IMG/VR virus record: IMGVR_UViG_3300030202_003189
Location: 146,739-210,738 of that record
From: a virus
DNA length: 64,000 nt
Reading direction: 5' to 3' (one strand)
This document shows, piece by piece, positions 3,920-8,039 of the stretch. The translations under genes and the position numbers were made by a program. The notes under the pieces were generated by a model that searched no databases, was not told where the DNA came from, and saw only the letters and a program-made list of their open reading frames with translations. Every line of letters begins with the position of its first letter. The stretch's first letter is position 1.

Positions 3920-5293
3920 ATGACAGACAGAAACTTCGGATACCTTGGAGATAAATTCCAATTAAAATTACTTTCACTTTTAATTGTGGATAATAAATTT
4001 GCTGACAATATAGTAGAGTCCATAGAACCCACTTATTTTGATGACCAATATTGTAGATTATTGATGCAGTTAATTAAGGAATATTATGGTAAATATGAGA
4101 CAGTACCAACCCACGATTCACTTGACCAACTTATTAGAATAGAGGTGTCAAATGAAACAGCAAAAGAATACTTAAAAGACACATTAAAAAAACTAAAGGA
4201 CCAAGATTTTGCTGATGCTGACTTTACTCAACAAACAGCATTAAAATTCTGTAAACAACAAGAGATTAAGAAAGCCATCTCCAATTCGGAGAAAATAATG
4301 TCAAATGGTAATTTTGAGGATTATGATAAAATAGAAGATTTATTTAGAAAGGCACTTAGTGTAGGAAATGACAAAGAAGATGGTATTGATGTTTTTACGG
4401 CACTAGAAGATGTTTTATCAGACGATTTTAGACATCCAGTACAAACAGGCATAACAGGAATAGATAACATAACAAATGGGGGACTATCAAAAGGAGAATT
4501 AGGTGTAGTTTTAGCCCCTTTTGGTGTGGGTAAATCTACAGTATTAACAAAATTTGCTAACACTGCTTATAATTTAGGACATAATGTAGTACAAATAATT
4601 TTTGAGGACAACCCAAAAGTTATACAAAGAAAACACATATCATGTTGGACTGGTATTGAACTAAATGAACTATCTGAGAGAAAAGAAGAGGTTAAAGAAA
4701 AGTTAGAAAAGTTTAAGAAGGACAGAGGAAATTTAATAATTAAAAAAATGGCTTCCGATGGGACAACAGTTGCCAAAATAAAACACTATATTAGAAAGTT
4801 AATCACTAGAGGTATAAGACCGGATGTTATTCTTTTAGACTATATTGATTGTGTTGTTCCAAGTAGACTTTTTACAGATGAATACGCTGGAGAAGGTAAT
4901 GTAATGAGAGAGTTTGAAACATTAGTTCATGAATTTGATATGGTAGGGTGGACAGCCGTACAAGGAAACAGAAGTTCAATAGGGGCAGATGTAGTTGAGG
5001 CTCACCAAATAGGAGGGTCGATTAAAAAAGGCCAAATAGGACACTTTATTATGTCTATTGCTAAAACTTTAGAACAAAAAGAAAGTGGAAGGGCAACTAT
5101 AGCAGTACTTAAATCTAGATTTGGTAAAGACGGTGTTATTTTTGAAGACTGTGTATTTGACAATGGTAAAGTACATATAGATACAGATGATCAGGTATCC
5201 TTTTTAGGTTTTGAGGATGTTAAAAAAGAAAAGAATGCGAATAGGGTCTTAGACGCAATACAGAAAAGAAACGAAAAGTTAAATAATAATTAA
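3920..5293 (+). CDS. 41: gp41-like replicative DNA helicase (DnaB family)
   Basis: A hexameric 5'-3' helicase that unwinds the fork ahead of the phage polymerase and works with the primase (here at 42488). The 457-residue length is close to T4 gp41 (475). The N-terminal helical domain (about 1-150) is followed by the RecA-like ATPase with TGITGIDNITNGGL, Walker A APFGVGKST (199-207), Walker B VILLDYID (303-310), and the Q-G-N-R and SK-rich segments of the SF4 helicase core. The downstream reductase starts 16 bases after the stop. Confidence 0.93.
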   Translation: MTDRNFGYLGDKFQLKLLSLLIVDNKFADNIVESIEPTYFDDQYCRLLMQLIKEYYGKYETVPTHDSLDQLIRIEVSNETAKEYLKDTLKKLKDQDFADADFTQQTALKFCKQQEIKKAISNSEKIMSNGNFEDYDKIEDLFRKALSVGNDKEDGIDVFTALEDVLSDDFRHPVQTGITGIDNITNGGLSKGELGVVLAPFGVGKSTVLTKFANTAYNLGHNVVQIIFEDNPKVIQRKHISCWTGIELNELSERKEEVKEKLEKFKKDRGNLIIKKMASDGTTVAKIKHYIRKLITRGIRPDVILLDYIDCVVPSRLFTDEYAGEGNVMREFETLVHEFDMVGWTAVQGNRSSIGADVVEAHQIGGSIKKGQIGHFIMSIAKTLEQKESGRATIAVLKSRFGKDGVIFEDCVFDNGKVHIDTDDQVSFLGFEDVKKEKNANRVLDAIQKRNEKLNNN

Positions 5294-5309: not shown

Positions 5310-7220
5310 ATGGATGTATCAAATAGAATTTTGTCGGATATTACTGTGTATATGAAATATGCTAAGTATATCCCTGAATTAAATAGAAGAGAAACTTGGG
5401 AAGAATTAGTAACTAGAAATAAGAATATGCATATTAAAAGTTATCCTAACCTAAAAGAAGAGATTGAAGATAAGTATAGATTTGTATATGAAAAGAAGGT
5501 ATTACCCTCCATGAGAAGTATGCAATTTGGTGGAAAACCAATTGAAATATCACCAAACAGAATTTATAATTGTGCTTATATGCCAATTGATAATATAGAT
5601 TCTTTTAGTGAGTGTATGTTTTTACTACTAGGAGGAACAGGTGTAGGATACTCCGTTCAGAAACATCATGTGGCAAAATTACCAATAATACAAAAACCTT
5701 ACCCTAAAAAGAAAAGAAGATTCTTAATTGGAGATTCTATCGAAGGATGGGCAGACTCCATTAAAGTTCTAATGAAATCATATATGAATGGTGGAGGTTC
5801 TAGAGTAGAGTTTGATTTTTCTGATATTAGACCTAAAGGGGCTAGATTAATAACATCAGGTGGTAAAGCACCAGGACCTCAACCACTAAAAGAATGTTTA
5901 GTAAAAATAGAAGGTCTATTAAATCAAAAAGAAAATGGAGAACAACTTACAACAATTGAAGTACATGACATTGTCTGTCATATCGCAGATGCGGTACTTG
6001 CCGGTGGTATTCGTAGAGCAGCTCTTATTAGTTTATTTAGTGCTGATGACGATGCTATGATTGGATGTAAAGCAGGTAACTGGTGGGAAACAAATCCACA
6101 ACGAGGTAGGTCAAATAACTCGGCTGTACTAATGAGACATAAAATCACAAAAGAATTCTTTTTAGAACTATGGAAAAGAGTTGAGTTATCAGGGGCAGGA
6201 GAACCAGGTATATATTTGAATAATGATAAAGACTGGGGAACCAACCCATGTTGTGAAATTGCTCTAAGACCATATCAGTTCTGTAATTTATGTGAGGTAA
6301 ATGTTTCAAACATAGAATCACAAGATGATTTGAATGAAAGAGTGAAGGTGGCGGCATTTATAGGTACATTACAAGCTGGATATACTTCGTTTCATTATTT
6401 AAGAGATGTGTGGAGAGAAACAACAGAAAAAGATGCTTTAATAGGAGTATCAATGACAGGTATAGGATCCGGTAAAGTTTTAAGATATGACATGTCTAAA
6501 GCTGCTAGTCTAGTAAAAAGAGAAAATACTAGAGTTTCGAAATTATTAGGTATTAATCAGGCGGCAAGAACAACAACAGTTAAACCAGCAGGAACAACAT
6601 CATTAACACTAGGAACATCATCAGGTATTCATGCATGGCATAATGATTATTATATTAGAAGAATTAGAGTTGGTAAAAATGAAGCAATATATACTTATTT
6701 AACAATTAATCATCCAGAATTAGTTGAGGATGAATATTTTAGACCTCATGATACTGCGGTTATTAGCATACCACAAAAATCACCAGAAGGTTCCATACTA
6801 AGAACTGAGTCACCATTCCAATTACTAGAAAGAGTTAAAAAGGTTGCATCTGAATGGGTAAATGCTGGACACAGAAAGGGTTCTAATAGTCATAATGTAT
6901 CTGCGACTATTTCTTTAAGAGACCATGAGTGGGATCCTGCAGGAGAATGGATGTGGGAAAATAGAAAATTTTATAATGGATTATCAGTATTACCTTATAA
7001 TGGAGGAACATATAAACAAGCACCATTTGAGGATATTACTGAAGAAACATATGAAGAAATGTTAAAATCTTTAACCAATGTTGACCTATCTAATGTAATA
7101 GAATTAGATGATAACACAGATTTGTCTGGTGAATTAGCTTGTTCTGGTGGTAATTGTGAAATTGATGTAGATATGAAATCTATAGAGGAGAAGGGAGAGG
7201 TTGAATTAAATGACGCATAA
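5310..7220 (+). CDS. nrdJ: Adenosylcobalamin-dependent (class II) ribonucleotide reductase
   Basis: Converts ribonucleotides to deoxyribonucleotides for phage DNA synthesis using a cobalamin-generated thiyl radical. The 636-residue protein resembles the monomeric Lactobacillus-type triphosphate reductase. FSECMFLLLGGTGVGYSVQ is typical of that family. The catalytic cysteines keep the reference spacing: Cys88 in YNC, the N-x-C-x-E triad N312/C314/E316 in NPCCEI, Cys325 exactly 11 residues on, and the C-terminal redox pair Cys611/Cys616, five apart. At 636 residues it is shorter than the 739-residue Lactobacillus enzyme. No small subunit, glutaredoxin or activase lies nearby, as expected for class II. 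It would depend on host cobalamin. Two small Cys-rich proteins overlap or follow it. Confidence 0.92.
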   Translation: MDVSNRILSDITVYMKYAKYIPELNRRETWEELVTRNKNMHIKSYPNLKEEIEDKYRFVYEKKVLPSMRSMQFGGKPIEISPNRIYNCAYMPIDNIDSFSECMFLLLGGTGVGYSVQKHHVAKLPIIQKPYPKKKRRFLIGDSIEGWADSIKVLMKSYMNGGGSRVEFDFSDIRPKGARLITSGGKAPGPQPLKECLVKIEGLLNQKENGEQLTTIEVHDIVCHIADAVLAGGIRRAALISLFSADDDAMIGCKAGNWWETNPQRGRSNNSAVLMRHKITKEFFLELWKRVELSGAGEPGIYLNNDKDWGTNPCCEIALRPYQFCNLCEVNVSNIESQDDLNERVKVAAFIGTLQAGYTSFHYLRDVWRETTEKDALIGVSMTGIGSGKVLRYDMSKAASLVKRENTRVSKLLGINQAARTTTVKPAGTTSLTLGTSSGIHAWHNDYYIRRIRVGKNEAIYTYLTINHPELVEDEYFRPHDTAVISIPQKSPEGSILRTESPFQLLERVKKVASEWVNAGHRKGSNSHNVSATISLRDHEWDPAGEWMWENRKFYNGLSVLPYNGGTYKQAPFEDITEETYEEMLKSLTNVDLSNVIELDDNTDLSGELACSGGNCEIDVDMKSIEEKGEVELNDA

Positions 7221-7416
7221 ATTTAGTAAAGAAATATTATATCACTTTAATTGTGGTAAGTGTAATAAATGGTGGTCAATTGCTGACTACCATTTATTTT
7301 CTAAAGAAGTACGGCCATATCAATACCTACAACCCAGTTTAATGACTTGTCCCCATTGTGGACATAAAAAAGAAGTAAAAGAAATAGAAAATGACGAGAA
7401 GAGACGATTGGATTAG
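7210..7416 (+). CDS. Small zinc-ribbon protein coupled to the reductase gene
   Basis: The 68-residue product has two CxxC knuckles, CGKC at about 15-18 and CPHC at about 47-50, separated by about 28 residues, the arrangement of a zinc ribbon. The rest is aromatic and charged. It starts 11 bases inside the end of nrdJ, so translation is probably coupled. The function is unknown; it could be a nucleic-acid-binding or redox partner. Confidence 0.75.
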   Translation: MTHKFSKEILYHFNCGKCNKWWSIADYHLFSKEVRPYQYLQPSLMTCPHCGHKKEVKEIENDEKRRLD

Positions 7417-7612
7417 TGAACTACACTATAGAGAATTTATTAAACCTAAATTACAACCCCAAGACTTTTATTGGGATGGTGGTAATATGGTAATGACAGA
7501 AGAGTATCATAAAAAAAGAGGGAGTTGTTGTGGTAGTGGGTGTAAACACTGTCCTTTTTGGCCACAATACATTAAAATGAATAAAGAGTTAAAAGAAGAT
7601 GTTAAAGTATAA
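7391..7612 (+). CDS. DUF5522-like small cysteine-rich protein
   Basis: The 73-residue product carries YWDGGNMVMTEEYHKKRG followed by SCCGSGCKHCPF. This matches the pattern of the widespread DUF5522 family (VFTxxYHxxRGxCCGxGCRHCP), known from many bacteria including Bacteroidetes, with no established biochemical role. The Cys cluster suggests a bound metal. It overlaps the zinc-ribbon gene by 26 bases in another frame. This is the last gene of the replication and nucleotide block. Confidence 0.7.
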   Translation: MTRRDDWISELHYREFIKPKLQPQDFYWDGGNMVMTEEYHKKRGSCCGSGCKHCPFWPQYIKMNKELKEDVKV

Positions 7613-7658: not shown

Positions 7659-8039
7659 ATGGCGGTAAAAACAATTAATATAGGGTTTCCTTTCGAAACC
7701 TCACCTATTGGGAATTTTTTGAGGTTAAATAGAACATCAAAAGATGCGATAAAGTCTGATATTACCCACCTTCTAATGACAAGAAAAGGGGAGAGACTTT
7801 ACAATAATGAGTTTGGTTCGGGTTTATATACTTTTTTATTCGAACAAATTGACGAAAAAACAGTAACTGATATTAAATTAGAACTAACAGAAAGTATTGC
7901 TAAGTATATGCCTAATGTGACAATAGACGACTTAATAGTAGAGTCGGATCCTGATAATAATCACATTAAAATTAACTTAGAATATACAATAACTAACACA
8001 TCATTTGATGAGAGTGATGCAATTGAAATTATTTTATAA
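7659..8039 (+). CDS. 25: gp25-like baseplate wedge protein
   Basis: A structural component of the baseplate wedge, of the gp25/GpW lysozyme-related fold found in contractile tails. The 126-residue protein has the family hallmarks IGFPFETSPIGNFLRL, LLMTRKGERLYNNEFGSGL and an F-E-Q-I helix region; T4 gp25 is about 132 residues. It opens the virion block and is followed two bases later by gp6, the conserved gp25-gp6 order. Confidence 0.92.
   Translation: MAVKTINIGFPFETSPIGNFLRLNRTSKDAIKSDITHLLMTRKGERLYNNEFGSGLYTFLFEQIDEKTVTDIKLELTESIAKYMPNVTIDDLIVESDPDNNHIKINLEYTITNTSFDESDAIEIIL

Follow-up and report, generated by a model that had tools for sequence, protein, structure and literature searches.

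A DUF5522 gene is exchanged together with a monomeric-type class II ribonucleotide reductase gene at one phage locus

Genes at the locus and the reductase they encode

The window (the whole stretch of viral DNA analysed here, 64,000 nucleotides) is part of a 231,285-base IMG/VR record, in which completeness is not stated. It contains a ribonucleotide reductase gene and two small cysteine-rich genes, which lie between a helicase gene and a baseplate gene:

3920..5293, + strand: DnaB-like helicase, left border of the exchangeable reductase cassette (phrog_19, E = 3.4e-62)
5310..7220, + strand: NrdJ, monomeric-type adenosylcobalamin-dependent ribonucleotide reductase, 636 aa (open reading frame, profiles, and alignment)
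7164..7217, + strand: C-terminal extension of NrdJ, residues 619-636, past the C611/C616 pair (alignment)
7210..7416, + strand: putative zinc-ribbon protein, 68 aa, CGKC ... CPHC (open reading frame)
7391..7612, + strand: DUF5522 protein, 73 aa, CC-x3-C-x2-C, conserved cassette partner of NrdJ (PF17653, 63.7 bits)
7659..8039, + strand: gp25-like baseplate wedge protein, right border of the cassette (PF04965, 53.4 bits)

The three cassette genes exist as the original prediction described them, overlapping head to tail. The end of nrdJ overlaps the start of the zinc-ribbon gene by 11 bases, and the zinc-ribbon gene overlaps the DUF5522 gene by 26 bases; the translational coupling that had been proposed may be read from these overlaps. 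The DUF5522 assignment was borne out, with a PF17653 score far above the cut-off of 25 bits. Two CxxC knuckles mark the 68-aa protein as a putative zinc ribbon, and many ribbon families match it weakly, all below cut-off. Profile searches placed gp32-, UvsX-, exonuclease-, and DnaB-like genes on the 5′ side of the cassette and gp25 on the 3′ side, and judged by these neighbours, the source looks like a T4-like phage.

NrdJ matches phrog_367 (E = 1.8e-132), and its best NCBIfam model is TIGR02505 (278 bits, under that model's cut-off of 340). The closest solved enzyme is that of Lactobacillus leichmannii (1L1L). Alignment with 1L1L pairs C88 with C119, N312 with N406, the thiyl residue C314 with C408, E316 with E410, C325 with C419, C611 with C731, and C616 with C736. 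All five catalytic cysteines are present, as predicted, and they, like N312 and E316, do not vary across the 117 aligned rows, which comprise the window and 116 relatives. The further claim that they keep the reference spacing held for residues 314-325 and 611-616 and failed for C88 to C314, which are separated by 226 residues in NrdJ versus 289 in 1L1L. NrdJ is 103 residues shorter than the Lactobacillus enzyme, in agreement with the predicted difference of about 100, and the missing residues are spread over more than one place (NrdJ 92-139 versus chain 123-219; 389-401 versus 481-525). The AlphaFold model of NrdJ (pLDDT 45, from an alignment of 19 rows) is too poor to show where in the structure the missing residues would lie. 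A short NrdJ is not abnormal, since seven of the eight other phage NrdJ proteins examined are equally short, at 615-648 aa, and the eighth has 751 aa.

NrdJ stops 20 residues past C616 and has no C-terminal CRD. Judged by sequence, it is a monomeric-type class II reductase (NrdJm): like L. leichmannii RTPR (1L1L) and the Thermus virus enzyme, it has the same catalytic residues, a C-terminal CxxxxC pair, and no CRD, and it differs from 1L1L in its length, in two extra cysteines, and in the small cysteine-rich gene behind it. The extra cysteines lie at window positions 6249-6293: C315 stands beside the thiyl cysteine in 117 of 117 rows and C328 near C325 in 114 of 117, and L. leichmannii RTPR has other residues at both positions. 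The CRD of dimeric class II enzymes is described as absent from NrdJm in a passage of PMC5704485, and a figure given in one survey is that monomeric class II enzymes make up about 49% of the reductases from marine viral populations (PMC12918982).

Exchange of reductase cassettes between helicase and gp25

The same helicase is the upstream gene in 99 of 112 nrdJ loci. Because vertical inheritance of the whole block therefore had to be excluded, we ran scans anchored on the helicase, taking the best 80 loci for each of three seeds: the window helicase, the helicase of another NrdJ-DUF5522 locus (L412), and that of a class I locus (L364). With the window helicase, 50 of the best 80 loci were readable, and DUF5522 was present in 18 of the 21 with NrdJ and in 0 of the 29 without NrdJ. 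The three scans gave 187 loci, from which 77 were dropped (too short or no usable helicase frame); the 110 that were readable past the reductase represent 76 distinct helicases.

All 76 distinct helicase loci carry a reductase in the slot, namely class I in 43, monomeric NrdJ in 32, and dimeric NrdJ in 1, with the classes identified for representatives and assigned to the remaining loci by similarity to them. DUF5522 follows monomeric NrdJ in 29 of 32 cases (20 of 20 in a second NrdJ lineage, described below, and 9 of 12 in the window lineage), class I NrdB-NrdA in 0 of 43, and dimeric class II in 0 of 1. The Fisher test of DUF5522 against reductase class gives P = 6e-18 over rows that are related to one another. 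On the helicase tree, a quick tree with long-branch warnings, the reductase class changes five to eight times. Five independent pairs can be drawn from this tree, in which DUF5522 tracks the class in four, opposes it in none, and is unchanged in one (P = 0.125, five pairs being too few to reach 0.05).

The exchange is visible in the DNA of closely related loci. Compared over 13 kb, L451 and L454 share 88% DNA identity up to the helicase end and 83% from a point shortly before gp25 onward. In the segment between, L451 carries NrdB-NrdA-thioredoxin (L451:7384-10546, class I), and L454 carries NrdJ (753 aa) and DUF5522 (L454:7386-9831, class II). On the L451 side, similarity returns about 50 bases past thioredoxin; on the L454 side, it returns in the last few bases of DUF5522. 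The same pattern is seen in the pairs L474/L412, L478/L412, and L472/L427, whose flanks are 71-83% identical; L474 has no thioredoxin. Among the distinct loci, 6 of the 43 with class I have thioredoxin after NrdA (next to it in five, one frame further on in L392), and 0 of the 32 with monomeric NrdJ have it behind the reductase (P = 0.035, kinship ignored).

In a group of T4-like phages, the reductase cassette that lies between a DnaB-like helicase and gp25 is exchangeable: related phages swap the reductase class as a whole cassette, partner included. Mere phage synteny is ruled out as the source of the linkage, since the same borders also enclose a different reductase with no DUF5522. A partner gene that tracks one reductase class at one locus provides related phages that can be compared as natural pairs, and it opens the function of DUF5522 to direct testing. 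As a separate observation at the same slot, a class I NrdA (L365:8336-9919) is split by an intein-like segment, with intein matches below cut-off.

Distribution of DUF5522 and the zinc ribbon

A profile search anchored on nrdJ (the best 80 matches and the window) found DUF5522 downstream in 46 of 81 viral loci, and in 31 of 59 after removal of duplicates, partial NrdJ sequences, and loci with less than 1.5 kb downstream. With the phage DUF5522 as query, 76 of the best 80 viral loci lie at most 0.9 kb after nrdJ; in each of the other four, the DUF5522 frame lies 2-179 bases from the contig start, and the zinc ribbon or the NrdJ tail is recognisable by eye in three. With a bacterial DUF5522 as query, 63 of the best 80 viral loci follow nrdJ and 17 do not (L274 among these begins at a contig edge). 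Two of the 17 records without an adjoining nrdJ carry any reductase, and one of these two, L315, has an NrdJ about 6 kb off. As each scan took the best 80 matches, the samples lean toward relatives of the query. The original prediction tied both small genes to nrdJ; for DUF5522, the gene is indeed linked with nrdJ in relatives, and so the proposed partnership stands, and for the zinc ribbon linkage is confined to one subclade. A collection of named phages yielded two weak DUF5522 matches (E = 0.01) and no zinc ribbon, and the three nearest named phages, with NrdJ 63-68% identical, have neither gene.

The best tree of the short NrdJ lineage requires 13 or more gains or losses of DUF5522, of which 9 are forced by starred branches. 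Where NrdJ has no helicase upstream, DUF5522 is absent from six of seven distinct loci, and L227 keeps the pair there; L317 was listed with these loci and does have a helicase, which overlaps. The six records that lack DUF5522 behind nrdJ held no other copy. Since none of the seven records with helicase-free NrdJ encodes a related helicase, they may come from other phages; the records may also be fragments.

Other genes accompany nrdJ in some loci. In loci such as L064, L069, and L547, the linkage outlasts an insertion: genes that by eye resemble GIY-YIG or HNH homing endonucleases lie between nrdJ and a retained DUF5522. Genes that by eye resemble GTP cyclohydrolase I and 6-pyruvoyl-tetrahydropterin synthase follow nrdJ in L040, L043, L073, and L070, as in 7-deazaguanine pathways. 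A small CxH...CxxC protein lies behind nrdJ in some loci without DUF5522 (for example L025, L028, and L050) and was considered as a clean substitute, which was ruled out because L029 has both.

Of 116 loci, 15 encode a zinc-ribbon relative detected by phmmer, and all 15 belong to a single subclade of 28 loci. In this subclade, 15-26 residues follow the last NrdJ cysteine; the ribbon is present in 0 of 88 short-tailed loci. The ribbon and the long tail thus mark a single clade, and their correlation carries no statistical weight. Gains or losses of the ribbon number 10, and L026, L339, and L340 carry it without DUF5522. L044 has another ribbon-like protein behind DUF5522 (a sub-cut-off match to Zn_ribbon_8), so ribbons outside the subclade are possible. 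The zinc ribbon may be a later, dispensable addition in one subclade that perhaps docks on the extended NrdJ tail.

DUF5522 is co-exchanged with monomeric NrdJ at one locus and follows two distant NrdJ lineages. The NrdJ of L454, which represents the second lineage, is 35% identical to the window NrdJ, and its neighbour matches PF17653 with 61.5 bits. A scan with the L454 NrdJ, taking the best 80 matches, left 48 distinct loci that extend 500 bases or more past nrdJ once duplicates and short loci were set aside, and 47 of them have DUF5522. In L589, the remaining one, an unrelated 75-aa frame takes its place. In this lineage gp25/gp6 lies downstream in 48 of 48 loci and the helicase upstream in 43 of 43 where it is visible; as the helicase-gp25 flanks are the same, the second lineage is not an independent locus. 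The best-scoring relative is a bacterial copy for 16 of 21 second-lineage DUF5522 proteins and a window-type copy for 4 of 21 (sets of 79 and 85, respectively), which suggests, without proving, that DUF5522 was recruited separately to this lineage. The reverse comparison, which is biased by set size, places 63 of 85 window-type copies nearest to bacteria. The DUF5522 tree has 5 of 90 branches starred, and its columns are too few for recruitments to be counted.

Cellular DUF5522 proteins (PF17653) occur in Bacteroidota, Acidobacteriota, Verrucomicrobiota, Thermus, and others, and we take human C1orf53 to belong to the family. They share the RG-x-CC-x3-C-x2-C core with the phage proteins; many window-type phage copies differ from them by an added N-terminal DWIxxL...EF segment. 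No NrdJ relative was found in the flanks of 79 of the best 80 cellular loci. The exception, L087, is a phage-like contig in a Flavobacteriia bin that has nrdJ and DUF5522 side by side. A class II enzyme scores over cut-off in 16 of 25 DUF5522-bearing genomes. Among 198 Bacteroidota genomes, the enzyme is present in 27 of 53 with DUF5522 versus 118 of 145 without it (kinship ignored), and this negative association points to a cellular role wider than class II reduction. The cellular gene neighbourhoods revealed no shared functional partner; the commonest clusters vary in strand and distance, and some are antisense frames.

Two arrangements were noted among the cellular copies. In the Verrucomicrobia loci L097, L134, and L161, a further cysteine-rich domain (CPLCGxxNxCQLC...CWC) precedes DUF5522 in one fused protein, and in L159 DUF5522 stands at the end of a far longer frame. 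Seven Bacteroidota genomes have two DUF5522 matches (G103, G107, G139, G150, G166, G252, and G256); in all of these except G150, one match has an in-frame stop and may be a pseudogene or an upstream frame.

Possible roles of the DUF5522 protein

Across 40 DUF5522 rows, R43, G44, C46, C47, C51, and C54 are invariant, and Y27, T36, and P55 are nearly so. The L454 and L547 proteins lack H40 and H53, which would leave the four cysteines to hold any metal. Profile searches matched neither DUF5522 nor the zinc ribbon to a thioredoxin or glutaredoxin family at E values up to 1, to TSCPD or CRD, or to a cobalamin-related family. Two families match the DUF5522 cysteine core below cut-off, PF12669 (E = 0.0022) and PF09791, Oxidored-like (E = 0.0066). 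No PDB relative of DUF5522 was found by sequence or by fold, the model having a pLDDT of 76.7 and a best fold match at E = 4.3.

The original prediction also held that the small proteins might act in place of thioredoxin. This is unsupported, because the record itself encodes a 126-aa WCGPC thioredoxin (101 bits) and a 164-aa glutaredoxin-like protein (28.8 bits). Thioredoxin scores over cut-off in 4 of 18 other long records with DUF5522 behind nrdJ versus 1 of 9 without it, and glutaredoxin in 5 of 18 versus 2 of 9; one of these nine, L027, has a partial DUF5522-like match elsewhere. Neither protein excludes DUF5522 across the 27 long records, and neither is supported as a stand-in for it.

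Because DUF5522 comes with NrdJ and is gone where another reductase type occupies the same spot, the two are probably partners, and we infer that DUF5522 serves NrdJ as a dedicated accessory. Its cysteine content, and analogy with what fills the same slot elsewhere, suggest more weakly a redox or tail-docking role. In the class I cassettes L451 and L372, thioredoxin is the gene next to NrdA, and in Roseobacter phage CRP-2, an annotated glutaredoxin lies directly after nrdJ. In these cases, too, a small cysteine protein occupies the slot, and in L451 it sits inside the exchanged segment. DUF5522 differs in having no thioredoxin or glutaredoxin profile match, and the window phage has its own thioredoxin elsewhere.

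The reading we favour, to which we assign a probability of roughly 45%, is that the three genes are the class II form of the exchangeable cassette and that DUF5522 is a dedicated NrdJ accessory. More tentatively, its four-cysteine centre (CC-x3-C-x2-C) would bind a metal or form a disulfide and help keep NrdJ turning over. For example, DUF5522 might dock on the flexible C-terminal tail of NrdJ and pass electrons between thioredoxin and the C611/C616 pair, or alternatively it might hold the tail in place; in either case it would complement thioredoxin rather than replace it. As a passage of PMC6459318 reports that a Thermus virus NrdJm is active in vitro with host thioredoxin, DUF5522 would improve turnover rather than enable it. 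A bolder version, which we consider doubtful, is that DUF5522 is a new reductase partner, small and metal- or thiol-centred, which would couple the monomeric B12 reductase to its electron source, would have been recruited at least twice, and would take the slot that thioredoxin has in some class I cassettes. If this were true, cellular DUF5522 would be a general thiol or metal adaptor. The name DUF5522 was not found in the literature searched. No such partner for class II reductases of phages appears among the titles and abstracts found there, and PMC3653736 names none in its section on gene organisation.

DUF5522 could instead be unrelated to nucleotide reduction and move with NrdJ through recombination borders in the helicase and gp25. 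Such passive carriage would fit the lack of DUF5522 at most helicase-free loci, its repeated gain and loss while NrdJ stays, the viral and cellular copies that have no adjoining nrdJ, the cellular copies that are not tied to a class II reductase, and the position of both NrdJ lineages at one locus. It accounts poorly for a gene that follows two lineages of such low identity and a class I reductase in 0 of 43 loci, and the closeness of second-lineage copies to bacterial ones hints at separate recruitment; we regard it as unlikely.

DUF5522 might also serve the adenosylcobalamin side of NrdJ and not its thiol side, by loading or protecting the enzyme or by reactivating it once the cofactor is lost. 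Such a role would explain why DUF5522 is absent from class I cassettes and present with the B12-dependent monomeric enzyme at the same locus. We consider this improbable, given that the sole dimeric class II cassette (L358) has no DUF5522 and that the profile matches include no cobalamin-related family. We give similarly low odds to the idea that the small proteins provide monomeric NrdJ in trans with what NrdJb or a fused CRD, the C-terminal zinc finger of class II enzymes, gives dimeric enzymes. There, likewise, a cysteine-rich, presumably metal-binding unit accompanies a class II reductase, and in NrdJa+NrdJb the domain is a separate gene, as a passage of PMC5704485 describes. NrdJm has no CRD, and the dimeric L358 enzyme, from a single locus, has its own TSCPD and C-terminal cysteine array. 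However, NrdJ retains its own C-terminal redox pair, DUF5522 shows no sequence match to NrdJb or the CRD and has four core cysteines rather than six, and a zinc finger is reported in two minor monomeric subclades (a passage of PMC9669993), so it can be fused there too.

Near the end of the record that contains the window (G000:C1:228548-229557, L086:971-1980), two successive small genes encode cysteine motifs, CPAC with a glutaredoxin match and CEEC with no Pfam match. L227 is a candidate for a joining of DUF5522 and NrdJ at another locus.
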